A DNA stretch of 31,664 nucleotides from a virus: IMG/VR virus record IMGVR_UViG_3300022602_000288, positions 1 through 31,664 of that record, one strand, 5' to 3'. The translations under genes and the position numbers were made by a program. How positions within the stretch are numbered: the first letter of the stretch is position 1; each line of letters opens with the position of its first letter. Below are positions 3-29,722 of the stretch, piece by piece. Under the pieces are notes generated by a model that worked only from the letters and a program-made list of their open reading frames with translations, was not told where the DNA came from and searched no databases.

Positions 3-269
3 GATATTTGTATTGATCGAAAGTATGTCATTAGAAATTACAAATCAATCATCACAGATATTGGCATCTTTTGTGAATTTACATTAGATGAGTGGAATGA
101 ACACGCTAAAAATATACGTGAGTTATATGAGCCTGAACCACGCAAAGAATGGGTAGGTCTGACGGATGAGGAAATAAAAAACATACTTGATTGTGGTCGT
201 GGTGGTTTAGTCGATATTAAAAAAGCAGAAGCCAAACTCAAGGAGAAAAATTGCACCCGTCAGGACTAA
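3..269 (+). CDS. Small phage protein, 5' end cut off by the window
   Basis: An open frame enters from the left edge and runs 88 codons to a TAA at 267-269, so the true start lies outside the window. The product is hydrophilic and charged. Residues about 46-55 of the visible part read EWVGLTDEEI; a WVGLTDEE motif recurs in many small phage proteins of unknown function (recalled from family knowledge, not searched). The C-terminus is Lys-rich. The Shine-Dalgarno and TTG start of the next gene lie inside its last codons, so the two are probably translated together as the first visible members of the early operon. I assign no function. Confidence comes from the uninterrupted frame, the recognisable motif and the tight coupling with the next gene. 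Confidence 0.6.
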   Translation, partial: DICIDRKYVIRNYKSIITDIGIFCEFTLDEWNEHAKNIRELYEPEPRKEWVGLTDEEIKNILDCGRGGLVDIKKAEAKLKEKNCTRQD

Positions 270-379
270 CACTTGAACGATGGAACTGGCCTTTCAAAAC
301 AGATGCAGAGCGTGAGCAGATTAGGTTGTGGCGAGAGGGCGTACCAAAAGATTTATCAGACACATCAATACCATTTTAA
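251..379 (+). CDS. Small hypothetical protein with TTG start
   Basis: A 42-residue frame begins at TTG 251, five bases after a perfect AAGGAG Shine-Dalgarno (240-245), and ends at TAA 377-379. The translation begins LHPSGLTLERWNWPF and ends with LSDTSIPF. It is rich in Trp and charged residues, with no membrane segment or Cys. It overlaps the end of the preceding gene by 19 bases and is followed after 9 bases by the next start, filling what would otherwise be a gap in a gapless operon. The rare start codon is supported by the very strong ribosome site and by the absence of a suitable in-frame ATG. Function unknown. Confidence 0.55.
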   Translation: MHPSGLTLERWNWPFKTDAEREQIRLWREGVPKDLSDTSIPF

Positions 380-388
380 GGAAAACAA

Positions 389-628
389 ATGAAACAAGAA
401 GGCAAAGTAAAGATCGGTTCCGCATACGAACCTAAGTGGTTTGAACGTAGGGCTACCCAAGGAACTTATAGCGCTAAAAATATTCCACTTGACAATGACC
501 AAATGTGGTTGCAAAATGCACTACTTGATGGTAGAGTACCAACTTATTGGAAAACAAAGATGGCGATAACAGTTGTTAGTATCGTCACAATACTCTACTT
601 TGCATGGGCTTATGGAGTGTTTAAATGA
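389..628 (+). CDS. Small protein with a C-terminal membrane anchor
   Basis: A 79-residue protein starts at ATG 389, preceded by AAGGAAAA. The N-terminal ~50 residues are polar and charged (a WFERRATQGTYSAKN stretch). Residues about 57-75 (MAITVVSIVTILYFAWAYG) form one hydrophobic helix close to the C-terminus, preceded by two lysines. This suggests a tail-anchored inner-membrane protein with most of its mass in the cytoplasm. There is no signal peptide or catalytic motif. It overlaps the following gene by an ATGA junction, so translation is probably coupled. It belongs to the accessory block at the front of the early operon, where phages often carry host-takeover or superinfection-exclusion proteins; applying that role here is inference only. 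Confidence 0.75.
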   Translation: MKQEGKVKIGSAYEPKWFERRATQGTYSAKNIPLDNDQMWLQNALLDGRVPTYWKTKMAITVVSIVTILYFAWAYGVFK

Positions 629-789
629 AAAAGAAAAAAGAAGTAGTTGAATACTGGAAACGCCCTCTGTATAAAGGATTCAAAATGGCAGACGTTGTGC
701 ATAGGCCGGGGGCACTAGATGTATTGAAGTATCCAAGCCGTGTCAGCAATACCTATTTTTATCCAGATGGGCGTGTAGTTAAAATCTAA
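625..789 (+). CDS. Small basic hypothetical protein
   Basis: The start ATG 625 overlaps the upstream TGA (ATGA). The frame encodes 54 residues, beginning MKKKKEVVEYWKRP and ending YFYPDGRVVKI, and stops at TAA 787-789. It is strongly basic at the N-terminus and rich in aromatic residues. The C-terminal NTYFYPDGR segment looks like a beta-turn region. No known domain is recognised. It is followed by AAGGAAAA and the next start at 799, so it fits exactly between its neighbours. The frame is real-looking because it is gap-free in position, overlaps in the same coupled style as the rest of the operon, and fills 160 otherwise empty bases. Confidence 0.65.
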   Translation: MKKKKEVVEYWKRPLYKGFKMADVVHRPGALDVLKYPSRVSNTYFYPDGRVVKI

Positions 790-798
790 GGAAAAGCA

Positions 799-1056
799 AT
801 GGACGAATATAGAAACAAACTCGTTGAACTTGGCAAGCAAGCAGGTATATACAAAAGTAAGTATGGCTTATTGTCAATACGGTTTGCAAAGAAAATCGAG
901 GAAATAGATGCAGTAGTCGCAGAGTGGAAAGCAGCACAGCCCGATAAGTTTTGGAGTGACGATGATCCTGAGTATAAGATCAAGTCGAATCGGTGGCGTG
1001 ACAGACGACTACGTACAAGTGTTCCCCTTAGTGAGATTCGTACAGGTGAACTATGA
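799..1056 (+). CDS. Hypothetical charged helical protein
   Basis: An 85-residue protein starts at ATG 799 with an AGGAAAA ribosome site. The first ~50 residues look alpha-helical, with amphipathic spacing around RFAKKIEEIDAVVAEWKAA. The second half is rich in Arg, Asp and Trp (SNRWRDRRLRTSVPLSEIR). There are no cysteines, membrane segments or catalytic signature. It overlaps the next gene by ATGA. The high charge and Arg-rich tail would be compatible with nucleic-acid or protein binding, but the sequence shows no specific fold and I do not assign a role. Confidence 0.65.
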   Translation: MDEYRNKLVELGKQAGIYKSKYGLLSIRFAKKIEEIDAVVAEWKAAQPDKFWSDDDPEYKIKSNRWRDRRLRTSVPLSEIRTGEL

Positions 1057-1307
1057 ACAAAACCGAAATGGCAAGGCAGATTTTGTCTGACGGTAGGTGG
1101 CATCGTATGAGTGATATAGCCAAAGCAATAGGCGAAACACAAGCCAATGTTCATCAAGTAGTAAATCGGGTTAAAGGTGTCGAGTACAAAATGAAAACGG
1201 TATTCAGGACAAGATGTAAGTATGCCAAACTTATGGATGCCGATACACCAATAGCCTTAGCCAAAAAATACCCCGGAGTTTGGGGTCAACTCTACTGGAG
1301 CACATGA
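1053..1307 (+). CDS. Winged helix-turn-helix-like small protein
   Basis: An 84-residue protein starts at ATG 1053 (ATGA overlap with the upstream stop). Residues about 4-40 fit a winged-HTH layout: a first helix (EMARQILSDGRWHRMSDIAKAIG), a turn, and a recognition-type helix (ETQANVHQVVNRV), followed by a possible wing around VEYKMKTVFRTRCKY. The opening resembles MarR/ROK-type 'ILSDGRWHTMSDIAKALG' modules in phage proteins. It is probably a DNA-binding accessory regulator of the phage or host, acting in the cytoplasm. The C-terminal ~25 residues (PIALAKKYPGVWGQLYW) are not part of the HTH. The assignment rests on pattern only; the target site is unknown. Confidence 0.6.
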   Translation: MNKTEMARQILSDGRWHRMSDIAKAIGETQANVHQVVNRVKGVEYKMKTVFRTRCKYAKLMDADTPIALAKKYPGVWGQLYWST

Positions 1308-1504
1308 TGACCGAGGATGAAGCATTTAAAGAGATGGAAGAGAGGTTGCGTAACGCACCAAGGGTAGTAGGTGCATTGCATGCGGCGACTAAAGCGCAGC
1401 AGTTTGTAGAAGAGACGGGGCAAGAGCTTGGTATCTATACATTACGCAAGGCGTTCGAGTTAGGGTTTATTCGTGGTTATATGGAAGGAAGAGAAACAAA
1501 ATGA
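1307..1504 (+). CDS. Hypothetical acidic helical protein
   Basis: I prefer the ATG at 1307 because GGAG at 1297-1300 is then 6 bases away. An in-frame ATG at 1304 has only 3 bases of spacing, and an upstream in-frame start near 1280 lies well inside the previous gene. The protein is about 65 residues, starting MTEDEAFKEMEERLRN and ending RGYMEGRETK. It is predicted helical and acidic at the N-terminus. The segment ELGIYTLRKAFELGFIRGYMEGR resembles small phage proteins with a C-terminal amphipathic helix. It overlaps the next gene by ATGA. Function unknown; no Cys, no membrane helix. Confidence 0.6.
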   Translation: MTEDEAFKEMEERLRNAPRVVGALHAATKAQQFVEETGQELGIYTLRKAFELGFIRGYMEGRETK

Positions 1505-1875
1505 AAAAGCAAAACAAAGCAGATAAGATTCGTAAATACATGGCTAAGTATCCAGAAGCAAAGCCGTCAACGATTGCACTTGATACGGGTGTAAGTGTGA
1601 ACTATGTGTACTACATACTTTCACAGAATAAGAAAGGCATAGTATCCAAGAGAGAGCAGCAGAAGGCTAGTGTGGCTAGGTTACGCATAAAGAAAGCCCG
1701 TCTGCAAAAGAAATTAGAGAAGCTAGAAACAACACCGCACATCCCACTTAACGAGCAGCCAACGCATACGGTTACTGGTGTAAGTGGACATACTTATGAG
1801 ATGCCTAACTTTTTGCCACAGCAGAAACTATCATTCTTGCAGAAAGTCAGCGGGTTCTTTAAAGGTCTATTCTAA
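1501..1875 (+). CDS. HTH plus coiled-coil protein, possible regulator
   Basis: A 124-residue protein starts at ATG 1501 (ATGA overlap). Residues about 5-45 form an HTH-type unit (KADKIRKYMAKYPEAKPSTIALDTG, then SVNYVYYILSQNKK); the phrase 'KPSTIALDTGVSVNYVYYIL' is the typical resolvase/transposase-like 'A..lGvs..tVy..l' pattern. Residues about 48-78 are a Lys/Arg-rich coiled coil (RLRIKKARLQKKLEKLE). The last ~20 residues are amphipathic and hydrophobic (KLSFLQKVSGFFKGLF). It may bind DNA as a dimer. It is the last gene before a 174-base intergenic stretch with a promoter, so it closes the first transcription block. A regulatory role is inference from the fold alone. Confidence 0.6.
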   Translation: MKKQNKADKIRKYMAKYPEAKPSTIALDTGVSVNYVYYILSQNKKGIVSKREQQKASVARLRIKKARLQKKLEKLETTPHIPLNEQPTHTVTGVSGHTYEMPNFLPQQKLSFLQKVSGFFKGLF

Positions 1876-1879
1876 CAAC

Positions 1880-1951
1880 GCCTAGCATGGTGATACGCCA
1901 ACAGTTACGCCTTGTATATGTGTGCTGTAGCGTGGGTGCAAGTTGCTAGGC
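1880..1951 (+). ncRNA. Possible structured RNA in the intergenic region
   Basis: The 174 bases between 1876 and 2049 hold no gene. Within them a perfect 8-bp inverted repeat, GCCTAGCA (1880-1887) and TGCTAGGC (1944-1951), closes a 72-base unit. Immediately inside is a 5-bp hairpin (1888-1892 with 1896-1900, loop ATA, one G-T pair). Directly abutting it is a 4-bp helix, ACAG (1901-1904) with CTGT (1925-1928). The flush stacking of three helices resembles the acceptor and D-arm side of a tRNA, but no T-arm or 7-base anticodon loop can be drawn, so it is not called a tRNA. It could be a small phage RNA, a leader or processing element, or chance. No U-run follows, so it is not a classic terminator. 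Confidence 0.3.
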
Positions 1952-2021
1952 ATATAGTTTGTCTACTTGTACCCTCCCTCAACACGACGGGGGGCGTGGA
2001 ATATACATAACCCCCCACTCC

Positions 2022-2051
2022 TTGACAAAGTAAAAAGAGGCATCATATAAT
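2022..2051 (+). promoter_or_regulatory. Sigma-70-type promoter, -10 overlapping the VRR-NUC start codon
   Basis: A consensus -35 TTGACA (2022-2027) and a consensus -10 TATAAT (2046-2051) are separated by 18 bases. The 18-base block CTTGACAAAGTAAAAAGA recurs exactly at 8807-8824, which also carries TATAAT, so the element is very unlikely to be chance. The ATG of the nuclease gene starts at 2050, inside the -10 box. A transcript starting about 7 bases after the -10 would begin within the gene. An AAGAGG at 2035-2040 could act as ribosome site on read-through transcripts. Confidence 0.75.
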
Positions 2052-2349
2052 GGCATCTACCCCAGAGAAAAAGGTCAAAGACAAATGCAAAGAGATATTC
2101 AAGAAGCATGGTGTCTGGCACTTCTCTCCTAACATGAACGGACTAGGTAGAGCAGGAGTACCCGATTTGATATGCTGTGTCAATGGGTATTTCTTAGCGG
2201 TGGAATGCAAAGCAGGAAAAGGCAAGACAACAGCACTTCAAGATAGAGAGTTAGCTGCGATACGTGCTGCAATGGGAGCGGCGCTTGTAGTAAATGAAGA
2301 TAACCTAGCAGAGCTAGAGCAAACCATAGAAGGACTACAACTATTATGA
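2050..2349 (+). CDS. VRR-NUC domain endonuclease
   Basis: This 99-residue protein is a stand-alone VRR-NUC nuclease, a PD-(D/E)XK-fold family found in phage replication modules and in FAN1. The basic N-terminal helix (TPEKKVKDKCKEIFKKHG) is followed by the family's NGxGRxGVPDL segment with D39, then VECKAGKG with E52 and K54, then Q64 in the Q-rich helix (TALQDRELAAIRAAMG), and a final beta strand (AALVV). All expected catalytic residues are present. The usual length is 90-120 residues, so it is complete. In the family such enzymes cut branched or structured DNA with Mg2+; here it may resolve replication intermediates next to the DNA polymerase. The start at 2050 is kept because the conserved N-terminal helix begins there, although it overlaps a promoter. 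Confidence 0.88.
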   Translation: MASTPEKKVKDKCKEIFKKHGVWHFSPNMNGLGRAGVPDLICCVNGYFLAVECKAGKGKTTALQDRELAAIRAAMGAALVVNEDNLAELEQTIEGLQLL

Positions 2350-2747
2350 ATGAAGAATTCAGCGCGGGAGTAAAAATACTTCTACAGCGCATGGAAACAA
2401 ACCCCGAAGAATTTTTTGACGCAGGGGGGCATAGCCCAAGAACACAATCCCCTAAATTTGAAGGTTTGATGGAGCAGATTATTAACCACAAGGTTGGTCA
2501 AATGGTGTCCGCAAGCTCGATAACGCCATGTTTTACTCAGGCCGAGTTTGATGCACTCTTTGAGGGGTATAGCAAGATTAGGCGTAAGGCGTTTGATGAC
2601 CATGTTATGTCGCAGATTCTAGACCCAAAGCAAAACGATGGGGTGACGCTAAAGAATATAAAGCACCCAACTAAATTTATGACTATGGCATCCATAACAA
2701 ACGATGCGTTGCGGATATTAGAGAACGAGTTAGTTTTTAAAAGGTAA
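2346..2747 (+). CDS. Conserved phage protein of unknown function
   Basis: A 133-residue protein starts at ATG 2346, overlapping the nuclease stop (ATGA). The N-terminus (GVKILLQRMETNPEEFFD) matches the N-terminus of the protein at 5032-5277 (GIKLLLERRKMYPEEF). The phrase 'LLxRMxxNPEEF' is a recurring opening in proteins of podovirus replication regions. A central segment around ITPCFTQAEFDALFEGYSKIRR looks helical, and the C-terminus is basic. No enzyme motif is visible. Its position between a nuclease and the DNA polymerase suggests a replication accessory role, but this is inference only. Confidence 0.7.
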   Translation: MNEEFSAGVKILLQRMETNPEEFFDAGGHSPRTQSPKFEGLMEQIINHKVGQMVSASSITPCFTQAEFDALFEGYSKIRRKAFDDHVMSQILDPKQNDGVTLKNIKHPTKFMTMASITNDALRILENELVFKR

Positions 2748-2759
2748 ATATCAAATTAA

Positions 2760-4586
2760 ATGAAAATAATTACACTTGATTTTGAATCCTACTACTCGCA
2801 GTCTTATAGCCTATCCAAACTTACAACCGAAGAATATATCCGTGGTAAAGAGTTTGAGGTTATCGGAGTAGCGGTAAAGGTCAATGACGGCGAGACGCAG
2901 TTTTTCTCAGGAACGTATGACAACACAAAGAACTTCCTTAAGAGTTTTGATTTTGAAAACAACCTTGCATTGGCTCATAACGCTATGTTTGATGCTGCTA
3001 TATTGGGTTGGCATTTTGGGGTTAATCCTCGTGGTTGGTTGGATACACTTAGCATGGCTCGTGCAATACATAGCACAGAAGTTGGAGGTAGCCTCGCAAA
3101 ACTTACAGAGTTTTATGGATTGGGTGCTAAAGGTACGGAAGTCCTTAAGGCGTTGGGTAAAAGGCGCTTAGACTTTACCGCCGAAGAAATGGCGCAGTAC
3201 GGGGAGTATTGCAAGAACGATGTAGAGTTGACATGGAAACTGTTTAACTGTATGCGCCCAGACTTTCCCCCTACTGAGCTACGCCTAATTGATCTGACTA
3301 TACGCATGTTTAGTGAGCCGGTGTTAGAACTGAATCAAGGCAAGCTAGAAGCACACATGATGATTATAGCCGATAAGAAGGCAAAACTTCTTAATACTGT
3401 TGGGTTGGACGGACGAGAAAACCTAATGAGCAATGACAAGTTTGCCGAGATGCTACGCATGGTTAAAGTCGAACCTCCTCGTAAGATTAGTCCGATTACA
3501 GGCAAGGAAACATGGGCGTTCTCTAAAACTGACGAAGCATTTAAGGCGTTACTGGAGCATGAAAACCTAATAGTACAAACTCTAGTATCAGCTCGTCTTG
3601 GGCTTAAGTCTACTCAGGAAGAAACACGCACTCAAAGATTCATAGATATATCAGAGCGTGGCACGTTACCTATCCCATTACGTTATTACGCTGCACATAC
3701 AGGGCGATGGGGTGGTGATGACAAGGTAAACATGCAAAACTTAGGGCGTACATCTCCTTTAAAGTATGCAATCCATGCGCCTACAGGGTATTTAATGATT
3801 GATTCGGATTCATCACAGATCGAAGCACGTACTGTGGCATGGTTAGCGGAACAAGACGACTTAGTGGAGGCATTTGAAAATGGGCAGGACGTATACAAAA
3901 TCATGGCTGCTGCTATCTATGGCAAGGCGGAATCAGAAATTACTAAGGAAGAACGCTTTGTTGGCAAGACAACAATTCTCGGTGCTGGTTATGGTATGGG
4001 TGCTGCAAAGTTCAAGGCGCAACTTAAAACATTTGGAGTGGATATTGAAGAAGATGAAGCAAAGCGCATCATACAAGTCTACAGGGAAACATACCCCAAA
4101 ATACCGCAACTATGGAAGCAAGCGTCGAACGCTCTTGAAGCTATCCTTAGCGAACAAACATCTGAAGTCGGTAGAGATGGCGTATTAGTAGTTGACCCCA
4201 AGCGTGGTATCCGCATGCCAAACGGACTATATATCAAGTATCCGAACCTACGCAAGGTAGACAAGGAAGGCGGCGGTGTTGAATACGTCTACGATACCAA
4301 GCGTGGTAAAGCTGTTATCCCTAACAGGATATATGGAGGTAAGGTAGTAGAGAATCTTTGCCAAGGCTTAGCCCGTATTATTATCGGCGAACAGATGTTA
4401 CGTATTGCCAAGAAGTACAGGGTTGTAATGACGGTGCATGATGCGATTGCTTGTATCGTGCCGGAGAACGAAGTTAAAGTAGCACAAGAGTACGTTGAGA
4501 TGTGCATGAGAATGCGCCCCGATTGGGCGTTGGGTTTACCTTTGAATTGCGAGAGTGGACATGGGAGTTCTTACGGAGAATGCTAG
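2760..4586 (+). CDS. Family A DNA polymerase with 3'-5' exonuclease (Leu762 type)
   Basis: This 608-residue protein is the phage replicative DNA polymerase (PolA/T7 gp5-like). The N-terminal DEDDy proofreading exonuclease shows Exo I D7 and E9 (TLDFES), Exo II with D78 (HNAMFDAAIL), and Exo III with Y150 and D154 (YCKNDV). In the polymerase domain, motif A has D350 and E355 (DSSQIEAR, Ser replacing the usual Tyr), motif B has R399, K403, L407 and Y411 (RFVGKTTILGAGYG), and motif C has H560 and D561 (VHDA, with Ala instead of the frequent Glu). L407 aligns with E. coli Phe762. There is no 5' nuclease domain, and T7 gp5 is about 100 residues longer. No strong ribosome site is visible before ATG 2760. 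It probably works with the primase-helicase at 10664 and the ssDNA-binding candidate at 9480. Confidence 0.96.
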   Translation: MKIITLDFESYYSQSYSLSKLTTEEYIRGKEFEVIGVAVKVNDGETQFFSGTYDNTKNFLKSFDFENNLALAHNAMFDAAILGWHFGVNPRGWLDTLSMARAIHSTEVGGSLAKLTEFYGLGAKGTEVLKALGKRRLDFTAEEMAQYGEYCKNDVELTWKLFNCMRPDFPPTELRLIDLTIRMFSEPVLELNQGKLEAHMMIIADKKAKLLNTVGLDGRENLMSNDKFAEMLRMVKVEPPRKISPITGKETWAFSKTDEAFKALLEHENLIVQTLVSARLGLKSTQEETRTQRFIDISERGTLPIPLRYYAAHTGRWGGDDKVNMQNLGRTSPLKYAIHAPTGYLMIDSDSSQIEARTVAWLAEQDDLVEAFENGQDVYKIMAAAIYGKAESEITKEERFVGKTTILGAGYGMGAAKFKAQLKTFGVDIEEDEAKRIIQVYRETYPKIPQLWKQASNALEAILSEQTSEVGRDGVLVVDPKRGIRMPNGLYIKYPNLRKVDKEGGGVEYVYDTKRGKAVIPNRIYGGKVVENLCQGLARIIIGEQMLRIAKKYRVVMTVHDAIACIVPENEVKVAQEYVEMCMRMRPDWALGLPLNCESGHGSSYGEC

Positions 4587-4872
4587 ACCGTTAATTTTAA
4601 TGGCGGAAGAGAAAAATCAAGATGAGCTTTCAATACATGGACGTATAACATTTAAGCAAACCCCTAAGTGTGTTTCGGCAGAGCAATATAAGAAGTGGCA
4701 AGCAGCAGCTAGATGGATACCCCCTCAGAATTATGGTTTTTGCACTGACTGTACTAAGGAATACCAGTCAAAAATGCTTGAAGCCGGAAGGTGTAGCCAT
4801 CCAGAAATTAAGTTTCGTAAACGAGGTCGATTGAAAAACGAAGGGTTTATACCCGCAGAGGAAAACGAATGA
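4561..4872 (+). CDS. Small putative zinc-binding phage protein
   Basis: About 103 residues if ATG 4561 is used; GTG 4555 or ATG 4600 are in-frame alternatives, and no strong Shine-Dalgarno decides among them (a weak GAGAG precedes 4561). The core reads FCTDCTKEYQSKM then AGRCSHPEI: a CxxC pair, then Cys and His about 14 residues later, consistent with one zinc site. The tail is basic (KFRKRGRLKNEG), then acidic at the end. It overlaps the polymerase 3' end by 26 bases and the next gene by ATGA. Similar 'GFCTDCTxEYQxxM...GRC.HP' proteins are recalled from other phages without a known role; DNA or RNA binding is a guess. Confidence 0.65.
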   Translation: MGVLTENARPLILMAEEKNQDELSIHGRITFKQTPKCVSAEQYKKWQAAARWIPPQNYGFCTDCTKEYQSKMLEAGRCSHPEIKFRKRGRLKNEGFIPAEENE

Positions 4873-5024
4873 ACAAATATTTAATCGGTGCATTACTTGC
4901 GGTGATTGCAACGGCAGCGGCAGCTAACTGTATAACAAATGTTATCGTCAACCGAGACGGTACGCACACGGTATGCACCACTTGCTGCACAGATAGCACT
5001 AATTGCGTAACCACTTGCATGTGA
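4869..5024 (+). CDS. Secreted cysteine-rich small protein
   Basis: A 51-residue frame starts at ATG 4869 (ATGA overlap; GAGGAAAAC upstream is a fair ribosome site) and stops at TGA 5022-5024. Residues 1-19 form a clear signal peptide: Lys3, a hydrophobic core (LIGALLAVIATAAAA) and an Ala-rich cleavage region before N20-C21. The mature part of about 32 residues has six cysteines (C21, C36, C39, C40, C46, C50) and many Thr/Asn residues. A lipobox is unlikely because Asn precedes C21. It is probably exported to the periplasm and disulfide-bonded there. It sits among early replication genes, an unusual place for a secreted protein. Function unknown; small Cys-rich exported proteins of similar look exist in aquatic proteobacteria and phages (recalled, not searched). 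Confidence 0.65.
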   Translation: MNKYLIGALLAVIATAAAANCITNVIVNRDGTHTVCTTCCTDSTNCVTTCM

Positions 5025-5031
5025 GGCCGCT

Positions 5032-5277
5032 ATGGATGAAGGCATTAAGTTACTTCTAGAACGCAGAAAGATGTACCCCGAAGAGTTTGTGCGGCGTAAA
5101 GATAGGTTCTATTCTAAATGGGTAGATTTTTTAGATTTATGGAGTATTGACCTTGATGACGCTAGCACTTACAAAAATGTAAAATTATTTGGGAATGGAG
5201 AATTCCATAAGGCAGTTATGCGTAAGCTACTGGAAGAGGAAGAAAAATATTTATCATATCTAGATCAAGCTAGGTAA
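5032..5277 (+). CDS. Hypothetical protein sharing an N-terminal motif with the 2346-2747 product
   Basis: An 81-residue protein starts at ATG 5032, seven bases after the preceding stop. Residues 4-19 (GIKLLLERRKMYPEEF) resemble residues 8-23 of the protein at 2346-2747 (GVKILLQRMETNPEEF), the only clear sequence relation in the window between two early proteins. The rest is helical and charged, with an aromatic stretch (FYSKWVDFLDLW) and a Glu-rich C-terminal helix (RKLLEEEEKYLSYL). It may be a diverged or shortened paralogue, or both may share a short interaction helix. No enzyme motif; function unknown. Confidence 0.65.
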   Translation: MDEGIKLLLERRKMYPEEFVRRKDRFYSKWVDFLDLWSIDLDDASTYKNVKLFGNGEFHKAVMRKLLEEEEKYLSYLDQAR

Positions 5278-5281
5278 AGCT

Positions 5282-5344
5282 ATGGTAAACACCAAGGAAA
5301 GGATGGCAGAATATATGTTGAAGAGCATGTACCCAAATGAATGA
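5282..5344 (+). CDS. Possible 20-residue small protein
   Basis: ATG 5282 lies six bases after AGG in TAGGTAAAGCT and encodes MVNTKERMAEYMLKSMYPNE, ending at TGA 5342-5344, which overlaps the start of the next gene. It would form a single amphipathic helix. It may be a real micro-protein or a coupling leader that brings ribosomes to the 5337 start, which lacks its own clear Shine-Dalgarno. Very short frames arise by chance, so confidence is low. Confidence 0.25.
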   Translation: MVNTKERMAEYMLKSMYPNE

Positions 5345-5525
5345 TGAAGATTTGAGAGACTTGTTTGCAGCGTTTGCTATGCTGAATATGACATGGAAAA
5401 CAGGTGCAGAAGATGAAGATGCAAAAGAATGCTACACAGTAGCGGATGCGATGCTTAGAGCTAAACACGCAGAAAAAGAAATTGGTATTACCGCAGCTAA
5501 ACCTAAACGAAAGAGGACATTATGA
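5337..5525 (+). CDS. Small hypothetical protein with basic tail
   Basis: A 62-residue protein starts at ATG 5337 and overlaps the next gene by ATGA. It is acidic and helical in the first ~50 residues (NDEDLRDLFAAFAMLNMTW and a CYTVADAMLRAKHAE helix) and ends in a basic stretch, KPKRKRTL. A single Cys is present; no membrane segment. The bipartite acidic-helical and basic-tail layout could suit a nucleic-acid or polymerase partner, but nothing specific is recognised. Confidence 0.6.
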   Translation: MNDEDLRDLFAAFAMLNMTWKTGAEDEDAKECYTVADAMLRAKHAEKEIGITAAKPKRKRTL

Positions 5526-5665
5526 GTAGTTGGTTAATCGCCGTTATTGGCATTGTGTATCTTGTGGTAGCAGTAGATTTATTTCGCAAAGGACAAATAG
5601 GACTAGGCATCGCTTTTATAGGCTATGCTCTGGGTAACGTAGGTTTATTTCTGGAAGCAAAATGA
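5522..5665 (+). CDS. Two-helix small membrane protein
   Basis: ATG 5522 overlaps the previous stop (ATGA), with GAGGAC upstream as ribosome site. The 47-residue product has two hydrophobic segments: residues about 4-19 (WLIAVIGIVYLVVAVD) and about 27-44 (GLGIAFIGYALGNVGLFL), joined by a short charged loop (LFRKGQ). Both ends are short. Tiny phage membrane proteins with a final 'GYALxNVGL' helix are recalled from other tailed phages. It is probably an inner-membrane helical hairpin of unknown function; an anti-host or superinfection-exclusion role would be speculation. It overlaps the following gene by ATGA. Confidence 0.72.
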   Translation: MSSWLIAVIGIVYLVVAVDLFRKGQIGLGIAFIGYALGNVGLFLEAK

Positions 5666-5874
5666 AAGGATTTGAACGCTTTGATTTAGAGCAAGCAATT
5701 ATGCACTGCTGGGGTGTTGTCGATGACTTACGTACTCTTAACGAAATAATAGACGACCCAGTCATTATAGGGCTTGCAGAAGTATACGATATGCGGTTTG
5801 ATAAGGCATTTAAACTATTCGAAAAAATGATAGCAGCGGAACACGAAGAAAAAATTAAAAAGGCAAGTAAGTAA
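5662..5874 (+). CDS. Conserved small phage protein (FDLEQxIMxCW type)
   Basis: A 70-residue protein starts at ATG 5662 (ATGA overlap). The opening FERFDLEQAIMHCWGVVDDLRTL is a pattern seen in short proteins in the replication regions of diverse podoviruses and cyanophages. It is followed by a helix around IIGLAEVYDMRFDKAFKLFEKMI and a Lys-rich end. It is all-helical and acidic, with no membrane segment. Function unknown. It shares one base with the next start (TAATG), so the two are translationally coupled. Confidence 0.7.
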   Translation: MKGFERFDLEQAIMHCWGVVDDLRTLNEIIDDPVIIGLAEVYDMRFDKAFKLFEKMIAAEHEEKIKKASK

Positions 5875-6179
5875 TGGTTGAAGCAGCATACCCCCCACTT
5901 AATCTTAAAGACGTAATCATGGAAGAACGACGAAAAGCAGGTGTATATATAGAAGCAAGCGCAGGTGATAAGCAGGTAGGCGGCAACCACTACAAGACTA
6001 TGGGTATCGAGCCTTGGGATGTTGTAGATACTTGGCCTATCGATCAGCAAATTGGTTACTACCGTGGTGGTGCGCTCAAGTACATCATGCGTATGGGTAC
6101 TAAAGATGAGAATGCCCAAGAGGTTGCTAAGGGTCAGCATTACATTGAGAAATTGCTAGAAGTATTAAGGAAGAAATAA
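5874..6179 (+). CDS. DUF3310 family protein (T7 gp1.7-related domain)
   Basis: This 101-residue protein has a variable ~30-residue N-terminus and then a DUF3310 domain. The diagnostic phrase VGGNHYKTMGIEPWDVV is followed by QQIGYYRGGALKYIMRMGTK and the closing helix GQHYIEKLLEVL. The DUF3310 domain is shared with T7 gene 1.7, whose product has nucleoside monophosphate kinase activity, so a role in nucleotide supply during replication is possible. The short length here means that enzyme activity is unproven. It lies between TAATG couplings on both sides, next to a nuclease. Confidence 0.85.
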   Translation: MVEAAYPPLNLKDVIMEERRKAGVYIEASAGDKQVGGNHYKTMGIEPWDVVDTWPIDQQIGYYRGGALKYIMRMGTKDENAQEVAKGQHYIEKLLEVLRKK

Positions 6180-6841
6180 TGGGCTGGTCTTACAGTAGTC
6201 TAAAGACGTTCCAACAATGTCCTAAGAAGTACTACCACTTAAAGGTAGCAAAGGATGTAGAAAATGTCGGCGGTTCGGCGGCAGACTACGGTAAGAAGTT
6301 CCATGAAGCGGCTGAGTTCTACATAAGGGATGGTAAACCCTTACCCAAGGAATTTAAGTTTGCTCAAAAGACATTAGATACGCTTAACAAAATCCCCGGT
6401 AAAAAATACTGCGAGATTGAGTTAGGGATAATAAAGAATAAGCAAGGGAAGTATATCTCTTGTAAGTTCGACGATCCTAATCATTGGTGGCATGGTATTG
6501 CAGATTTACTTATCATCGATGGTGGTGCAGCGTATTTGGTTGATTACAAGACTAGCAAAAATGCAAAGTATGCGGATACTAAACAGCTTGATCTACTGGC
6601 AGCGGGGGTGTTCCTTACGTTCCCTATGGTGCTTGAGATTAAGTCTGCGCTAGCATTTGTTATTAGTAATGAGTTCATAACCAAGGAGCATCATAGCTTT
6701 TACAAGGACGACTATATGCACGTTATGAAGCCTGAGCTTGACCGTCTTGAAGCTGCTATGGCTAACAAAGTATGGAATCCAGTTTCAGGCCCGCTATGTA
6801 AATTTTGCCCAGTTACTAGCTGCGCACACCACAAAGGATAA
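6179..6841 (+). CDS. PD-(D/E)XK nuclease, Cas4/RecB-like, with probable Fe-S cluster
   Basis: A 220-residue nuclease. The N-terminus SYSSLKTFQQCPKKYY is the classic 'S.s.l..f..CP..y' opening with C14. H42 lies in GKKFHEAAEF. The catalytic core has D109 (HGIADLLII), then D122 and K124 (LVDYKTSK), and Q136. The C-terminal CKFCPVTSC supplies C207, C210 and C215. Together with C14 this forms the four-Cys arrangement that binds a 4Fe-4S cluster in Cas4 and AddB-type nucleases. Its likely role is 5' or 3' exonuclease activity on phage or host DNA during replication and recombination. It stands two genes before the SNF2 helicase, a pairing common in replication modules of this type. No cas genes are near, so it is not called Cas4. 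Confidence 0.87.
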   Translation: MGWSYSSLKTFQQCPKKYYHLKVAKDVENVGGSAADYGKKFHEAAEFYIRDGKPLPKEFKFAQKTLDTLNKIPGKKYCEIELGIIKNKQGKYISCKFDDPNHWWHGIADLLIIDGGAAYLVDYKTSKNAKYADTKQLDLLAAGVFLTFPMVLEIKSALAFVISNEFITKEHHSFYKDDYMHVMKPELDRLEAAMANKVWNPVSGPLCKFCPVTSCAHHKG

Positions 6842-6843
6842 GC

Positions 6844-7161
6844 ATGGAAGATTTAGATCAGGTTTCGATTGACACCGCAGTTATCTTAGATGAAAAAGTA
6901 AACGAGCGTGTTAAGAATATAACTAATATTTATTTAGGCGAAGTATTAGGCAAACTAATATCGATGGAGTTCGATAAACGGTTCAACGTCGAGAAGGAAA
7001 AGATGTTGATGGAAGTCGCCATAACCGCAGGTAAAATACTAGGTCGGGCAGCGGATGAAAACCGTAAGCCATTATGGGAGACCGATATAGTGGAGCTTGG
7101 GTTTCCTCCCGTTACTACTACCCACAATATATCAGGAGCCAAAGATGGCCTACAAAAATAA
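6844..7161 (+). CDS. Hypothetical protein
   Basis: A 105-residue protein starts at ATG 6844 after a good AAAGGA ribosome site. The N-terminal two thirds are helical and charged (VILDEKVNERVKNIT, FDKRFNVEKEKMLMEVAI). The C-terminal part (PLWETDIVELGFPPVTTTHN) looks extended. No Cys, membrane helix or catalytic motif is seen. It overlaps the start of the next gene by 17 bases. Function unknown; its place between nuclease and helicase genes suggests an accessory replication protein (inference). Confidence 0.6.
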   Translation: MEDLDQVSIDTAVILDEKVNERVKNITNIYLGEVLGKLISMEFDKRFNVEKEKMLMEVAITAGKILGRAADENRKPLWETDIVELGFPPVTTTHNISGAKDGLQK

Positions 7162-7441
7162 AGCAGATCGTAAGTACGATACCGCCGTAGACTACGAAGA
7201 TACCCCCGAGCAAGTTAAGAATCGTGTTGAACGTAACAAAGCCCGTCGCAAACTAATGAAAGAAGGTAAGGTTCATAAAGGCGACGGCAAAGATGTTGCA
7301 CATATTAAAGCAGCAGATAAGGGTGGCTCTATCAAAGATGGGGTGAAGGTAGAGGATGCGAAGGCTAATCGGTCATTTAAACGTGATGCAAAGCGCAATC
7401 TGGTTTCGGAAGTTAGCACAAGAGAACGCAAACGCAAATGA
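7145..7441 (+). CDS. Basic HNH-like protein, probably degenerate
   Basis: I place the start at ATG 7145 (AGGAG at 7133-7137, spacing about 7), giving 98 residues; a longer frame from 7097 would run deep into the previous gene. The protein is very Lys/Arg-rich. RNKARRKLMKEGKVHKGDGKD-VAHIKAADKGGS followed later by ANRSFKRD fits a small phage family with an HNH-like layout, in which 'GKDVDHIxPLSKGG' and 'NRS' are conserved. Here the Asp of the usual DH pair is Ala (VAHI, H53) and no zinc-binding cysteines are present, so nuclease activity is doubtful. It may bind DNA. It overlaps the helicase start by ATGA. Confidence 0.65.
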   Translation: MAYKNKADRKYDTAVDYEDTPEQVKNRVERNKARRKLMKEGKVHKGDGKDVAHIKAADKGGSIKDGVKVEDAKANRSFKRDAKRNLVSEVSTRERKRK

Positions 7442-8811
7442 AAGATTACAACTGGCCGGGGCAGTTCACGCCGTTTGCTCACCAGAAAATCACAGCATCA
7501 TTCTTAGCGGAAAGACCTAAGGCGTTTTGCTTTAATGAGCAAGGCACGGGAAAGACTGCATCAGTTATATGGGCTGCTGACTATCTAATGAATCTCGGTG
7601 TAGTACGTAGAGTATTGGTAGTATGTCCGTTATCTATTATGAAGTCTGCATGGCAGAACGATTTGTTTAAGTTTGCAGTTCATCGCTCTTGCGATATTGC
7701 TTATGGCGACAGGAAGAAACGGGCAAAGATTATAGGTGGTGACGCTGAGTTTGTCATTATAAACTTTGATGGTTTAGCTATCGTAAAGGACGAAGTGATA
7801 GCCGGAGGCTTTGACCTTATTGTTGTTGATGAGGCATCGGCTTATAAGAACCCAACTACGGAACGATGGAAAGTACTTAGGGATATCAACAAGTCTGTTA
7901 AAGGTCTTTGGATGTTAACAGGTACACCCGCTGCACAGTCTCCGGTGGATGCTTATGGACTAGCTAAATTGGTTAATCCTAAGGGCGTAGCTCCGTTTTA
8001 TGGGCAGTTCAGAGAACAGGTGATGTCTAAGGTTAGCATGTATCGATGGATACCTAAGCCCAACGCAAAAGATATAGTGCATCAAGTATTGCAACCCGCT
8101 ATTCGGTTCGAGAAAGATCAGTGCTTGGACTTACCAGAAGTAACATTCGTAGAACGAGAAGCACCGCTAACTCCGCAGCAATTAAAGTACTACAAGATTT
8201 TGAAAGAGCAGATGCTAATTAGTGCAGCGGGTGAGGAAGTTAGCTCTGCCAATGCAGCAACGAGTATCAACAAACTTCTACAGTTGTCAGGTGGTGCAGT
8301 CTATACGGACACTAGAGAGGTTGTGGAGTTCGATGTATCAAATAGGCTACAAGTTATCCTAGAAGTTGTGGAAGAAAGCTCACATAAGGTGTTGATTTTT
8401 GTTCCCTTTACGCACACCATCGAGTTACTAAAAGATTACCTAACGAAACATGGCGTATCATGCGATATCATAAACGGAGCAGTTGCAGTAAATCGTAGAA
8501 GTGATATTGTTACAGACTTTCAGACGACGGATAAAATTAAGGTTCTTATCATTCAACCACAAGCTGCATCACATGGGTTAACCCTAACAGCAGCTAACAC
8601 AGTTATATGGTATGCACCGGTTATGTCAGTCGAGACGTATCTTCAGGCCAACGCACGTATTAACCGCCCGGGTCAGAAGAATGCAATGACCATAGTACAC
8701 ATAAGAGGTAGTGACGTAGAACGCAAGCTGTACCACATGTTGAGTAATAATATCAACAACCATACGAAAATAATTGATTTGTACCGCCAAGAAATCGCTA
8801 ACGGTTCTTGA
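7438..8811 (+). CDS. SNF2-family (superfamily 2) helicase/translocase
   Basis: A 457-residue ATPase. Walker A is NEQGTGKT (K39), motif II is VVDEAS (D131, E132), motif III is MLTGTPAAQSP (161-167), and motif VI is QANARINRPGQ (R407, R410), preceded by the motif V region QPQAASHGLTLTAANTV. These match phage SNF2/HepA-type DNA translocases, and the length is that of a minimal two-RecA-domain core with no accessory domain. Such proteins remodel forks or displace proteins from DNA, and they co-occur with PD-(D/E)XK nucleases, VRR-NUC and Leu762 polymerases in phage replication modules. The start overlaps the previous stop (ATGA). Its TGA stop lies inside the -35 box of the downstream promoter. 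Confidence 0.94.
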   Translation: MKDYNWPGQFTPFAHQKITASFLAERPKAFCFNEQGTGKTASVIWAADYLMNLGVVRRVLVVCPLSIMKSAWQNDLFKFAVHRSCDIAYGDRKKRAKIIGGDAEFVIINFDGLAIVKDEVIAGGFDLIVVDEASAYKNPTTERWKVLRDINKSVKGLWMLTGTPAAQSPVDAYGLAKLVNPKGVAPFYGQFREQVMSKVSMYRWIPKPNAKDIVHQVLQPAIRFEKDQCLDLPEVTFVEREAPLTPQQLKYYKILKEQMLISAAGEEVSSANAATSINKLLQLSGGAVYTDTREVVEFDVSNRLQVILEVVEESSHKVLIFVPFTHTIELLKDYLTKHGVSCDIINGAVAVNRRSDIVTDFQTTDKIKVLIIQPQAASHGLTLTAANTVIWYAPVMSVETYLQANARINRPGQKNAMTIVHIRGSDVERKLYHMLSNNINNHTKIIDLYRQEIANGS

Positions 8812-8835
8812 CAAAGTAAAAAGAAGCATTATAAT
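8808..8835 (+). promoter_or_regulatory. Sigma-70-type promoter, second copy of the repeated element
   Basis: TTGACA (8808-8813) and TATAAT (8830-8835) are separated by 16 bases. The block CTTGACAAAGTAAAAAGA matches the promoter near 2022 exactly, followed by AGCAT in place of GGCAT. The -35 box overlaps the TGA stop of the helicase gene. The predicted start of transcription, near 8842, gives a leader of about 24 bases carrying AGGAG (8855-8859) for the GTG start at 8866. This promoter would drive the coiled-coil, ssDNA-binding, regulator and primase genes. Confidence 0.8.
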
Positions 8836-8865
8836 AGTAACTCCCCCTTTAATTAGGAGCATGAA

Positions 8866-9261
8866 GTGACTGAGAAGATATCGGCTGAAGAGCTAGCAAA
8901 AGTTTATATTAAGATACGTGATGCAAAGGAAGCAGCGGCTGAAAGACATAAGCAAGAGATAGCCGTATTCAACGAACAACTCGATGCTATATCTGCAGAG
9001 TTGTTAGAAATCTGTAAAGAGTTAGATGCTAGTAGCATACGCACTGGCGCAGGGACAGTTATTCGTAAGGTGACTACTCGCTTTGATACGAATGATTGGG
9101 GTTCGATGTTTCAGTTCATTAAAGAGAACGACGCATACGGGCTATTACAGCAACGACTGCATCAGAATAACATGAAGCAGTTCTTAGAAGAGAATCCAGA
9201 TTTGCACCCCCCGGGGCTGTGGTCGGATAGTCAATACACAATCGTAGTACGTAGGAGCTAA
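8866..9261 (+). CDS. Conserved phage protein with N-terminal coiled coil (Gam-like candidate)
   Basis: A 131-residue protein starts at GTG 8866, set by AGGAG at 8855-8859 (6-base spacing); an ATG at 8861 is out of frame and stops at once. Residues about 5-55 form a long charged coiled coil (KIRDAKEAAAERHKQEIAVF and onward). The C-terminal half has a conserved-looking core: RTGAGTVIRKVTTRF, DWGSMFQFIKENDAY, LLQQRLHQNNMKQFLEENP, then PGL...YTIVVRRS. The coiled coil followed by a small beta domain resembles Mu Gam or Gp157-type host-nuclease-inhibitor families, but the match is loose. It is first in the transcript from the 8808 promoter. Confidence 0.7.
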   Translation: MTEKISAEELAKVYIKIRDAKEAAAERHKQEIAVFNEQLDAISAELLEICKELDASSIRTGAGTVIRKVTTRFDTNDWGSMFQFIKENDAYGLLQQRLHQNNMKQFLEENPDLHPPGLWSDSQYTIVVRRS

Positions 9262-9262
9262 G

Positions 9263-9487
9263 ATGGAAAAGCAAAAGAAGCAACCGGAAATTAGTCCGGA
9301 GGCACAGGCAGCTATTGCTGCACAACAAAGAATCTACTCACAAGAATTAGGTCTTGAATTGCAGCTACGCAATGCTGCTTTGCATGAGGCTGTTGAACAC
9401 GCCTCGACGGACTTAAATCCAAAGAGTGTAGTAAGAATTGCAGAAGTATTCTTAAAATTTCTAAAGACAGGTGAAAGCGATGAGTAA
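9263..9487 (+). CDS. Small helical hypothetical protein
   Basis: A 74-residue protein starts at ATG 9263 after AGGAG, two bases beyond the previous stop. It is Ala/Gln/Glu-rich and predicted fully helical (PEAQAAIAAQQRIYSQELG, NAALHEAVEHAS, and SVVRIAEVFLKFLKTG). The last helix resembles those of small proteins that precede phage ssDNA-binding genes. It overlaps the start of the ssDNA-binding candidate by 8 bases, implying coupled expression and perhaps a physical partnership. Function unknown. Confidence 0.65.
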   Translation: MEKQKKQPEISPEAQAAIAAQQRIYSQELGLELQLRNAALHEAVEHASTDLNPKSVVRIAEVFLKFLKTGESDE

Positions 9488-10373
9488 CATTTCAATCTTC
9501 AATCAAGACGTTCCTGACTTCCTCAAAGGCGGCATCAACGAATTAACTAAGGCACTTGCAGGTGGTGCGGGTGGTAGCAGACGCATTTCTATTCGTGGTG
9601 GTGTATTCCGTAAAGTTGTCAACGGTGAAGAGATTGCAAAGATTAAAGGCCGTGAGCTTAACGTAATTATCGTTAATGCAAACAAGAATATATCTCGTAT
9701 TTTCTACGCAGGTAAATACAACCCTGACGAGGTTGTGCCCCCAACATGTTGGTCTACTGAAGGAATTGCGCCCGATGCTAAAGTTGAAGATAGACAGGCA
9801 GATAGCTGTGCGACTTGTCCTCAGAACATTTCTGGGTCTGGTAGTGGTACTAGCCGTGCTTGCCGTTATCAGCGTAGGGTCGCAGTAATCCTAGAAGGCG
9901 ATATGTCTGGTGACGTATATCAGTTGATGCTCCCATCTAAGTCGATCTTTGGTAAGGGCGAGGGCAACGTACATCCTTTTGAGAGTTATGGTAAGTACTT
10001 GGCTAACAACGGTCGTAACATCAATCAGGTCGTGACGCAAATTGAATTGGATATGGATAGCGATACGCCTAAATTGTTATTCTCACCTGTACGCCATATC
10101 AATGCTGAAGAATGGGCAGTTGTGGAGAGGGCTGGTTCATCACAAGAAGCTAAGAATGCAATTTTGATGACCGTTGCACAAGTTGATGGGGTTAAGAAAG
10201 CATTGCCTCAACCAACCGCTCCCGCTGCAGCAAAGCCAAAAGTAGTCGTGCAAGATGAACCTGAGGAATTTATTCCAGAGCCAGTTAAGCGTGTATCCAA
10301 AAAGCCTGAAGTAGGTTCTTCTGGTAAGCAAGACTTAGCATCTGTAATCAGTGCTTGGGGTGATTTGGAATAA
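9480..10373 (+). CDS. Putative single-stranded DNA-binding protein with zinc-finger-like cysteines
   Basis: I use ATG 9480 (AGGTGAAAGCG upstream), giving 297 residues; an in-frame start at 9471 is less well placed. The N-terminal Gly-rich basic region (GGAGGSRRISIRGGVFRKV) leads into beta-rich sequence. Four cysteines, C90, C110, C113 and C128, are spaced as one zinc site (PPTCW, DSCATCP, RACRYQRR). The last ~60 residues are low-complexity Pro/Ala/Lys followed by an acidic, aromatic end (VISAWGDLE), a layout typical of phage ssDNA-binding proteins whose acidic tail contacts polymerase and helicase. A zinc-containing SSB has a precedent in T4 gp32. Identity by function is inferred from this layout and from the position between replication genes. 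Confidence 0.65.
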   Translation: MSNISIFNQDVPDFLKGGINELTKALAGGAGGSRRISIRGGVFRKVVNGEEIAKIKGRELNVIIVNANKNISRIFYAGKYNPDEVVPPTCWSTEGIAPDAKVEDRQADSCATCPQNISGSGSGTSRACRYQRRVAVILEGDMSGDVYQLMLPSKSIFGKGEGNVHPFESYGKYLANNGRNINQVVTQIELDMDSDTPKLLFSPVRHINAEEWAVVERAGSSQEAKNAILMTVAQVDGVKKALPQPTAPAAAKPKVVVQDEPEEFIPEPVKRVSKKPEVGSSGKQDLASVISAWGDLE

Positions 10374-10609
10374 TGAGCTACGGATACAGTTCGAGGCTTA
10401 TCGAAGCTAATAAGAAAGCTGACGCATCACACCTTGGAGTGTATCTGGGGCGTAAATGTATCAAGCATGATATTCCTGTCACTCAAATTGCAGAGAAGCT
10501 AGGGGTTAGTCGTATGACGGTGTACAACTGGTTTACTGGTTTACATGCCCCACAAGCTGCATGCGTTGAGCTGATTAAAGAATTGCTAGCGTCGTTTAAG
10601 CAAAAATAA
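10373..10609 (+). CDS. Cro/CI-like helix-turn-helix regulator
   Basis: A 78-residue protein starts at ATG 10373 (TAATG coupling). Residues about 22-65 make an XRE-type HTH: RKCIKHDIPVTQIAEKLGVS then RMTVYNWFTGLHAPQ, with the standard 'Q-IA-xx-LGVS-xx-TVY-W-xxG-xxxP' spacing. There is no oligomerisation or cleavage domain, so it is more Cro-like than CI-like. It probably represses or tunes an early promoter, possibly one of the repeated TTGACA promoters. No operator repeats were identified. It lies just before the hairpin and the primase-helicase. Confidence 0.8.
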   Translation: MSYGYSSRLIEANKKADASHLGVYLGRKCIKHDIPVTQIAEKLGVSRMTVYNWFTGLHAPQAACVELIKELLASFKQK

Positions 10610-10620
10610 TATTGGTGAAT

Positions 10621-10641
10621 GCTAGGGGGTTCGCCCCCTGC
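10621..10641 (+). promoter_or_regulatory. Strong GC hairpin with TTCG tetraloop before the primase gene
   Basis: AGGGGG (10624-10629) pairs with CCCCCT (10634-10639) around TTCG; the outer GC (10621-10622) pairs with GC (10640-10641) across one bulged T. A C(UUCG)G-type loop on five G-C pairs is exceptionally stable. Only three Ts follow after a C, so it is a poor rho-independent terminator. More likely roles are transcript stabilisation, partial attenuation, or control of translation of the primase that starts 23 bases later. Confidence 0.6.
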
Positions 10642-10663
10642 TTTGCCGTCTCTGGAACATACG

Positions 10664-13477: not shown

Positions 13478-13652
13478 CTACAACATTAACTGGCGTAACT
13501 TTAAAGCGGGGTATTCCTTTTTTATACCCTGCATTGCCTGCACAGAGGCTAAAAAGACGTTAAGAGAAGTTGCTAGAAAGGCTAAGATGAACATAGTTAT
13601 GAAGACCGTGATTGAAGATGGCGTCAGGGGTGTGCGTGTCTGGCGAGTTTAA
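13458..13652 (+). CDS. Small basic protein at the end of the early operon
   Basis: ATG 13458 gives 64 residues; a TTG at 13440 is possible but less likely. The start lies 20 bases inside the primase 3' end. The opening DYNINWRNFKAGYSFFIPC and the closing KTVIEDGVRGVRVWRV match a recurrent phage layout, in which a short N-terminal 'NINWR.F..G.SFF.P' leads to a helix (TEAKKTLREVARKAKM) and a final strand 'IEDGxRGxRVWR'. That alpha-beta arrangement and its basic charge would suit nucleic-acid binding. Function unknown. It is the last rightward gene before the terminator. Confidence 0.68.
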   Translation: MKIEQVDYNINWRNFKAGYSFFIPCIACTEAKKTLREVARKAKMNIVMKTVIEDGVRGVRVWRV

Positions 13653-13687: not shown

Positions 13688-13713
13688 CCCCCGCCAAGTG
13701 CGGGGGTCTTTTT
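13688..13713 (+). terminator. Rho-independent terminator of the rightward operon
   Basis: CCCCCGC (13688-13694) and GCGGGGG (13700-13706) form a 7-bp GC-rich stem with loop CAAGT, followed by TCTTTTTA. It follows the last + strand gene by 35 bases. The T-tract overlaps the stop codon of the convergent giant gene (13712-13714). No comparable T-tract exists in the opposite orientation, so it mainly stops rightward transcription. Confidence 0.9.
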
Positions 13714-29188: not shown

Positions 29189-29722
29189 TTACCCCAACAT
29201 ATTCTTTGCGTTTGCTTCGACAGTATCTACCCGAGCGAGCCACCCTCTTTCGTAGTGAGGGTCTTGCAACATTTTATAATAATGTCGTTTAGTATCCGAA
29301 TAGCTTGCAATTAGTTCTTCTATAGGTATTTCTTTAGCAACTAGCATTGTAGTCTTATCTACTTCCCCAGTCACAGGCACTGCCAAACACTCTTGTAGCA
29401 ACTTAATTGCCCGCCCCACCCCTGCATTGACACCAAAATCAAACACCATGTAATCAAGGGGTGTTGGCAATTGATCGCAGTCACAAGCATCCCAATACTT
29501 TCTTCTATAGAATGGTGCAACCGTAGCAGGGGTAAGCGCCCGCATATCCTTCCAAGTCACTGGATGTCCGACATACTCTTCCCAAGCACGTTGGGTCACG
29601 CCCAAATTTGTAGACCCTGCACGACCATCGGCTAGTTTATTACCTGAGTCATTTATATCCGTAGTAAATCCGCCCTCACTACGTAGGACTAGCGAAAGGG
29701 AACGATCATAATTACTTTGCAT
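29189..29722 (-). CDS. GH108 family endolysin (muramidase)
   Basis: A 177-residue lysozyme-type endolysin. The N-terminal GH108 domain shows the catalytic Glu in LRSEGGF (E16), followed by DINDSGN and GSTNLGVTQRAW, the family's 'GG.TN.Gvt' block. Later come FYRRKYWDAC, LDYMVFDFGVNAGVGRAIKLLQ and the C-terminal PG-binding-type region (GEVDKTTM through RHYYKMLQDPHYERGWLARVD). It lacks a signal peptide, so it needs a holin to reach the peptidoglycan. It overlaps the i-spanin gene by 11 bases and follows the holin candidate, forming a compact lysis cassette. The ribosome site is weak, so coupling is likely. Confidence 0.92.
   Translation of the reverse strand: MQSNYDRSLSLVLRSEGGFTTDINDSGNKLADGRAGSTNLGVTQRAWEEYVGHPVTWKDMRALTPATVAPFYRRKYWDACDCDQLPTPLDYMVFDFGVNAGVGRAIKLLQECLAVPVTGEVDKTTMLVAKEIPIEELIASYSDTKRHYYKMLQDPHYERGWLARVDTVEANAKNMLG

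Follow-up and report, generated by a model that had tools for sequence, protein, structure and literature searches.

The small exclusion lipoprotein Llp of phage T5, as described in PMC9586334, binds FhuA from the periplasm and contains one disulfide. Rtp45 of phage Rtp (about 6 kDa) has a disulfide and a hairpin that is in part beta-stranded, and it is described as binding LptDE from the same side (PMC12685063). According to these two sources, binding of Llp or Rtp45 alters the outer loops of the receptor and the next phage is unable to bind (PMC9586334, PMC12685063). SieA of phage P22 is described as excluding phages at the stage of DNA entry (PMC10883804). Here, we analysed a whole linear virus record of 31.7 kb (IMG/VR record IMGVR_UViG_3300022602_000288), hereafter the window, and particularly a gene that encodes a 51-residue, exported-looking protein with six cysteines, hereafter M. 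M very probably belongs to a real family of exported early proteins. By analogy with Llp and Rtp45, we propose that it is a superinfection exclusion protein, with a probability of about 0.4. Among the three functions offered by an initial annotation of the window (modification of the envelope, block of superinfection and inhibition of periplasmic host enzymes), superinfection exclusion is the one that has the closest published precedents, namely Llp and Rtp45. The gene and its parts are as follows:

4869-5024, + strand: gene M, 51 amino acids, with homologues and under purifying selection
4869-4925, + strand: signal peptide of M by its form, residues 1-19 (MNKYLIGALLAVIATAAAA), with an AxA motif preceding N20-C21 and no lipobox
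4926-5021, + strand: mature domain of M, 32 amino acids, C-x14-C-x2-CC-x5-C-x3-C-x, predicted to be a three-stranded sheet
4857-4862, + strand: ribosome-binding site AGAGGA of M, 6 nucleotides ahead of the ATG

Like Llp, M is small, comes from phages that look lytic, and is predicted to be exported and periplasmic. However, Llp is lipidated, larger and stapled by a Cys11-Cys58 bond, whereas M has no lipobox, has six cysteines and spans unrelated phages. Rtp45 shares with M a similar small size and, by prediction for M, disulfide bonding, beta strands and the periplasmic side, but it is a lipoprotein with one disulfide whereas M would have three. No sequence link was found between M and Rtp45. 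The structure libraries gave no significant match to M, and whether they contain the chains of Llp and Rtp45 was not checked. SieA is an inner-membrane protein of 162-164 residues that is encoded by a prophage and lacks a signal sequence, whereas M looks like a soluble exported peptide.

The coordinates, strand, length and cysteine count that the initial annotation gave for the M open reading frame (ORF) are correct. Its translation is MNKYLIGALLAVIATAAAA-NCITNVIVNRDGTHTVCTTCCTDSTNCVTTCM (signal peptide, then mature part), and all six cysteines lie within the 32-residue mature part. Residues 1-19 look like a Sec signal peptide: a lysine close to the N terminus is followed by a hydrophobic core and, last, by AxA. 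This agrees with the signal peptide called earlier; our check was rule-based (Lys/Arg in the n-region, hydrophobic core, AxA), and it found AxA followed by one or two residues before the first cysteine in all 79 complete relatives. The ATG of M lies in a 4-nucleotide overlap with the stop of the preceding gene. By composition alone M is only mildly unusual, since 3 of 100 windows randomised with a Markov-1 model also contain an ORF that starts like a signal peptide and has five or more cysteines beyond residue 18.

The conservation of the frame and of the cysteines among relatives settles M as a real coding gene. A scan of IMG/VR with the single protein retrieved only one relative (L001, 92%), and more distant ones were mined from 80 loci encoding the polymerase of the window, by looking for short, cysteine-rich ORFs that begin like a signal peptide. 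A profile of seven proteins was then used for a first IMG/VR scan, with patterns covering part of the cysteines (127 stretches confirmed, 80 kept). A second profile, used with a single pattern over CTTCC, i.e. three of the six cysteines, led to 310 confirmed stretches, of which the best 80 were kept; the counts of 127 and 310 overlap and were not merged. The first set comprises 58 unique proteins. All keep the frame and six cysteines spaced as C-x13/14-C-x2-CC-x4-6-C-x3-C-x-end, and in two there is one additional cysteine, within the signal peptide. In the second set, 79 of the best 80 loci keep the six cysteines and AxA, without lipobox, the 80th being cut by the end of its contig. The initial annotation had left it to homologues to tell whether frame and cysteines are kept, and both are. 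There is a clean gap below six cysteines: a six-frame profile search of the loci then in hand retrieved no member with four or five.

Selection on the protein is also visible at the nucleotide level. Between M of the window and its nearest relative L001, differences at codon positions 1, 2 and 3 number 3, 2 and 17, and the mature part differs by 15 synonymous and 3 non-synonymous changes. The pooled ratio of non-synonymous to synonymous substitution (dN/dS) is 0.26 for the mature part (104 pairs with a synonymous difference below 0.6) and 0.60 for the signal peptide (260 pairs); these figures are averages and not independent tests, since pairs share ancestry. M is thus under purifying selection. 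In each of the other five frames, between 51 and 58 of the genes encoding the 58 unique proteins contain a stop.

Composition was examined on the union of the two sets (102 unique members). The chain ends one residue past the last cysteine in all of them, this residue being F in 77, Y in 11, M in 8, N in 5 and V in 1; M of the window ends in methionine. The mature part carries a net charge of +1 in 81 members, 0 in 18 and -1 in 3. Cysteines make up 20% of the mature residues, and histidine and acidic residues are scarce. Two candidate readings lost ground in this survey: M as a lipoprotein was rejected (lipobox in 0 of 79 complete relatives), and M as an antimicrobial peptide was weakened by the near-neutral mature charge of the 102 members.

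The M family is large and has no name in Pfam, PHROGs or NCBIfam. A scan with the 58 members gave no match in PHROGs or Pfam at an E-value of 0.01, and NCBIfam gave two chance-level matches, each with a single member (E 0.0064 and 0.008); PADLOC gave nothing useful for M. The family was not found by word searches of open-access papers, although it may be described elsewhere. Exported early phage proteins had been regarded as rare by the initial annotation. This view does not hold, as IMG/VR contains 310 stretches of the M family and 118 of a second exported family presented below, and M is more widespread than had been supposed.

AlphaFold modelled full-length M with a mean predicted local distance difference test (pLDDT) of 75 and a helix at residues 3-19. 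For mature M (47 alignment rows), pLDDT reached 91.1 with a predicted template modelling score (pTM) of 0.46, and DSSP assigned strands 2-8, 14-21 and 27-31 of the model to a three-stranded sheet. By the strand limits, residue 8 would be opposite 14 and residue 21 opposite 27; with these registers, cysteines 2 and 20, 17 and 31, and 21 and 27 (mature numbering) face each other and all six are paired, which suggests three disulfides with this pattern. The profile retrieved from PDB sequences a single chance match (E = 1). Foldseek retrieved nothing at E <= 0.001, either from PDB with the full-length model or from PDB and BFVD with the mature model. VIA-align of the mature model gave a best Z of 3.9, to generic three-stranded meanders of unrelated proteins. 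The missing fold match does not imply a new fold.

The position of M and a perfect sigma-70 consensus upstream support its early expression within a replication operon, as had been claimed. The surroundings are as follows:

2022-2051, + strand: perfect sigma-70 promoter, TTGACA-18-TATAAT, heading the block that contains the polymerase gene and M
2760-4586, + strand: family A DNA polymerase (phrog_17, E 2.4e-90), two genes upstream of M
4561-4872, + strand: upstream protein of about 103 amino acids with a Cys/His cluster and no family match; its stop overlaps the ATG of M
5032-5277, + strand: downstream protein of 81 amino acids; in sister phages without M, the homologue comes after the polymerase
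8808-8835, + strand: second copy of the sigma-70 promoter, heading the next block

The two promoters are near-identical (TTGACAAAGTAAAAAGA...TATAAT, with spacers of 16 and 18), two matches being found against 0.02 expected in shuffled sequence, and both are present in the same order in L001. M lies 2.8 kb downstream of the promoter at 2022, whose -10 box overlaps the ATG called at 2050; therefore, the true start of the block's first gene may lie downstream of this ATG. Early genes occupy the + strand (about 250-13,480), and structural and lysis genes the - strand. The initial annotation named a zinc-binding protein on one side of M and a hypothetical gene on the other. This order is confirmed, but the zinc-binding assignment finds no support, since the product of 4561-4872 has no significant family match.

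M is not fixed at this position. In the sister phages L003-L009, whose polymerases are 78-79% identical, M was not found. In three of them (L006, L007 and L008), the polymerase is immediately followed by the homologue of the gene downstream of M. M and its upstream neighbour are thus accessory. Only 6 of the 80 polymerase loci carry M, many of these loci being truncated. M is found behind 17 different gene clusters (88 rows, in which L082 repeats the window, L002 repeats L001 and L161 is a Runella metagenome-assembled genome, MAG). These clusters include the polymerase, a SNF2 helicase, early proteins of 300 and 131 amino acids, a ParB-like protein of 279 amino acids and a protein resembling single-stranded DNA-binding protein (SSB). 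Furthermore, recombination genes of Erf and YqaJ types are found beside M in other phages.

A survey of 149 loci, excluding L161, L082 and L002, found an upstream ORF for 147. In 126 loci, this ORF ends at most 20 nucleotides from the start of M or overlaps it. An acidic ...[IVL]PF tail, which is typical of SSB proteins, ends the upstream protein in 50 of the 147 loci. In L123, the upstream protein has a match to an SSB PHROG (1.3e-14), and two other upstream proteins with like tails gave no SSB match.

Within the collections searched, which did not include Pseudomonadota genomes, M is found only in phages. Only two of 50,697 phage records carry M, namely MW202462 and MW202544, which both come from Manatee Spring; the proteins of the window or of L012 used as queries matched none of these records, and the matches to Salmonella virus SeLz-2 and Prevotella Lak phages (E 7 to 10) do not exceed chance. 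In MW202462, the M gene (33818-33958; L162 755-895) is unannotated and the opposite strand is annotated with a hypothetical protein, an example of how small exported genes get missed. None of the plasmids searched carries M. A scan of genome contigs (narrow pattern, 18 stretches) retrieved one locus, L161, from the Runella MAG. There, in 1-1040, M lies next to homologues of two gene clusters of the window, and Runella genes follow. L161 looks like a phage fragment or remnant, or a chimeric mis-assembly. Among 295 genomes of the class of this MAG, the search recovered this MAG again and otherwise just one weak match, located within an open frame of 2057 aa. No tyrosine integrase was detected in 20 carrier records, the control search being positive in 14 of 14 genomes. 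Hence, carriers look like lytic phages, although several of these records could be incomplete.

The lysis genes of the window (29189-30140, - strand) encode a GH108 endolysin and Rz/Rz1-like spanins and have a Gram-negative-type look; therefore, a periplasm should exist in the host. The spanin-like genes are the following:

29712-30140, - strand: Rz-like inner spanin (weak match), with an Rz1-like lipoprotein frame (29765-29953) inside (phrog_739, E 0.0063; phrog_3198, E 1.3e-4)

As the Rz family PF03245 was found in none of 20 carrier records, the inference of a Gram-negative host is restricted to the spanin-like genes of the window itself.

On this basis, we propose that M would be made early in lytic infection from a host-type promoter, exported by Sec and cleaved by signal peptidase I. 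In the periplasm, the 32 residues would fold, without lipidation, into a three-stranded sheet held by three disulfides. M should act by binding, since a sheet of about 30 residues has no plausible catalytic residues, and this small rigid ligand may bind a conserved host envelope protein. It would block a receptor or an entry step from the periplasmic side, and later phages would be unable to inject. Several points weigh against this proposal. M has no lipobox whereas the exclusion proteins Llp, Rtp45 and Cor are lipoproteins. Exclusion proteins usually fit one receptor and M is conserved over unrelated replication modules, so that a general host target would be an equally good reading. Moreover, the carriers among named isolates amount to nothing beyond two environmental genome records, L161 leaves a cellular origin of M open, and the predicted fold, whose pTM is only 0.46, is silent on function.

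The phage early takeover proteins studied so far act mostly in the cytoplasm. A large and strongly conserved exported family that hops among early operons of unrelated lytic phages would open the periplasm as a site of host takeover or phage competition. The target of M and its disulfide pattern are directly testable because about 30 residues are easy to synthesise, and if the stapled sheet does bind a conserved envelope protein, it might be of practical value as a ligand.

The mature part, conserved as it is across unrelated phages, would also suit an inhibitor of a general host target, such as a periplasmic quality-control or assembly machine (protease, stress sensor or outer-membrane protein assembly complex). 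The benefit would then be a productive envelope or a blunted envelope-stress response, and exclusion would not be the purpose. Rigid disulfide-stapled sheets are common inhibitor scaffolds. Furthermore, the aromatic residue that ends most members one residue after the last cysteine (F in 77/102, Y in 11/102) resembles the ends of outer-membrane proteins. However, 14 of the 102 members, including that of the window, end in M, N or V, and the terminal aromatic residue is thus not essential. We regard such an inhibitor as somewhat unlikely.

It is quite unlikely that M tunes lysis from the periplasm, in the way that the T4 antiholin RI, itself small and exported, binds the periplasmic domain of the holin. 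The block of M does encode a 47-aa protein with two hydrophobic, potentially membrane-spanning segments (5522-5665), which is 83% identical in L002, but this neighbour is found in only 1 of the 80 polymerase loci (L002, on the same contig as L001). Moreover, M is far from the lysis genes, which are on the opposite strand, and moves among replication operons without an accompanying lysis gene. RI acts on the holin of T4, whereas M is not near lysis genes, and the fold and cysteine content of RI also differ from those of M.

The high cysteine content and the CxxC pair included in CTTCC would be compatible with a metal- or redox-active peptide (CxxCC...C...C) instead of a disulfide-stapled ligand. 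Such an activity seems improbable, as all six cysteines are in facing pairs of the predicted sheet and residues such as histidine and acidic ones are scarce. In addition, cysteines exported to the Gram-negative periplasm normally oxidise.

M is small, cysteine-rich and exported-looking, and it shares the cysteine order C-C-CC-C-C with knottins and many animal toxins, all of which would fit a secreted toxin or an antimicrobial peptide directed against other cells or competing microbes. However, its loop sizes differ from those of knottins (13-14 residues in the first loop and 2 in the second). The facing pairs of the predicted sheet suggest a pairing I-III, II-VI and IV-V, other than the knottin pattern I-IV, II-V and III-VI. 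The net charge of +1, 0 or -1 in all 102 members is unlike that of cationic antimicrobial peptides, and no immunity gene was seen travelling with M. We regard this role as very improbable. Lastly, that the ORF is untranslated, as the 57-aa antisense ORF overlapping M might suggest, is scarcely conceivable given the conserved frame, cysteines and signal peptide, the dN/dS of 0.26, the third-position bias, the ribosome site and the stop-start overlap.

A second exported cysteine-rich family, with four cysteines around RGG[MI]CCW, occurs in three sister polymerase loci and, besides these, in 80 loci (L236-L315):

L017, 5018-5167: second-family gene
L029, 5025-5186: second-family gene
L030, 678-821: second-family gene

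This family has no Pfam match, and the gene upstream of it often ends in ...VPF, like an SSB tail (AGDVPF in 16 of the 83 motif loci). The two families do not occur together in any locus (157 M loci and 83 second-family loci). Likewise, the second family was detected in none of 34 M records (3 of 3 positive controls were recovered), and M in none of 20 second-family records, the latter search having no control. Since both families are uncommon, their mutual exclusion may simply reflect rarity. We tentatively suggest that there is an early slot, often behind an SSB gene, for interchangeable exported cysteine-stapled mini-proteins of at least two unrelated families. They would act on a periplasmic target common to many Gram-negative hosts of lytic phages and could form a branch of host takeover, or of exclusion between phages, that takes place outside the cytoplasm and has been overlooked.

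Outside the early region, a single open frame of 2804 codons without Pfam match (13712-22126, - strand) occupies about a quarter of the record.
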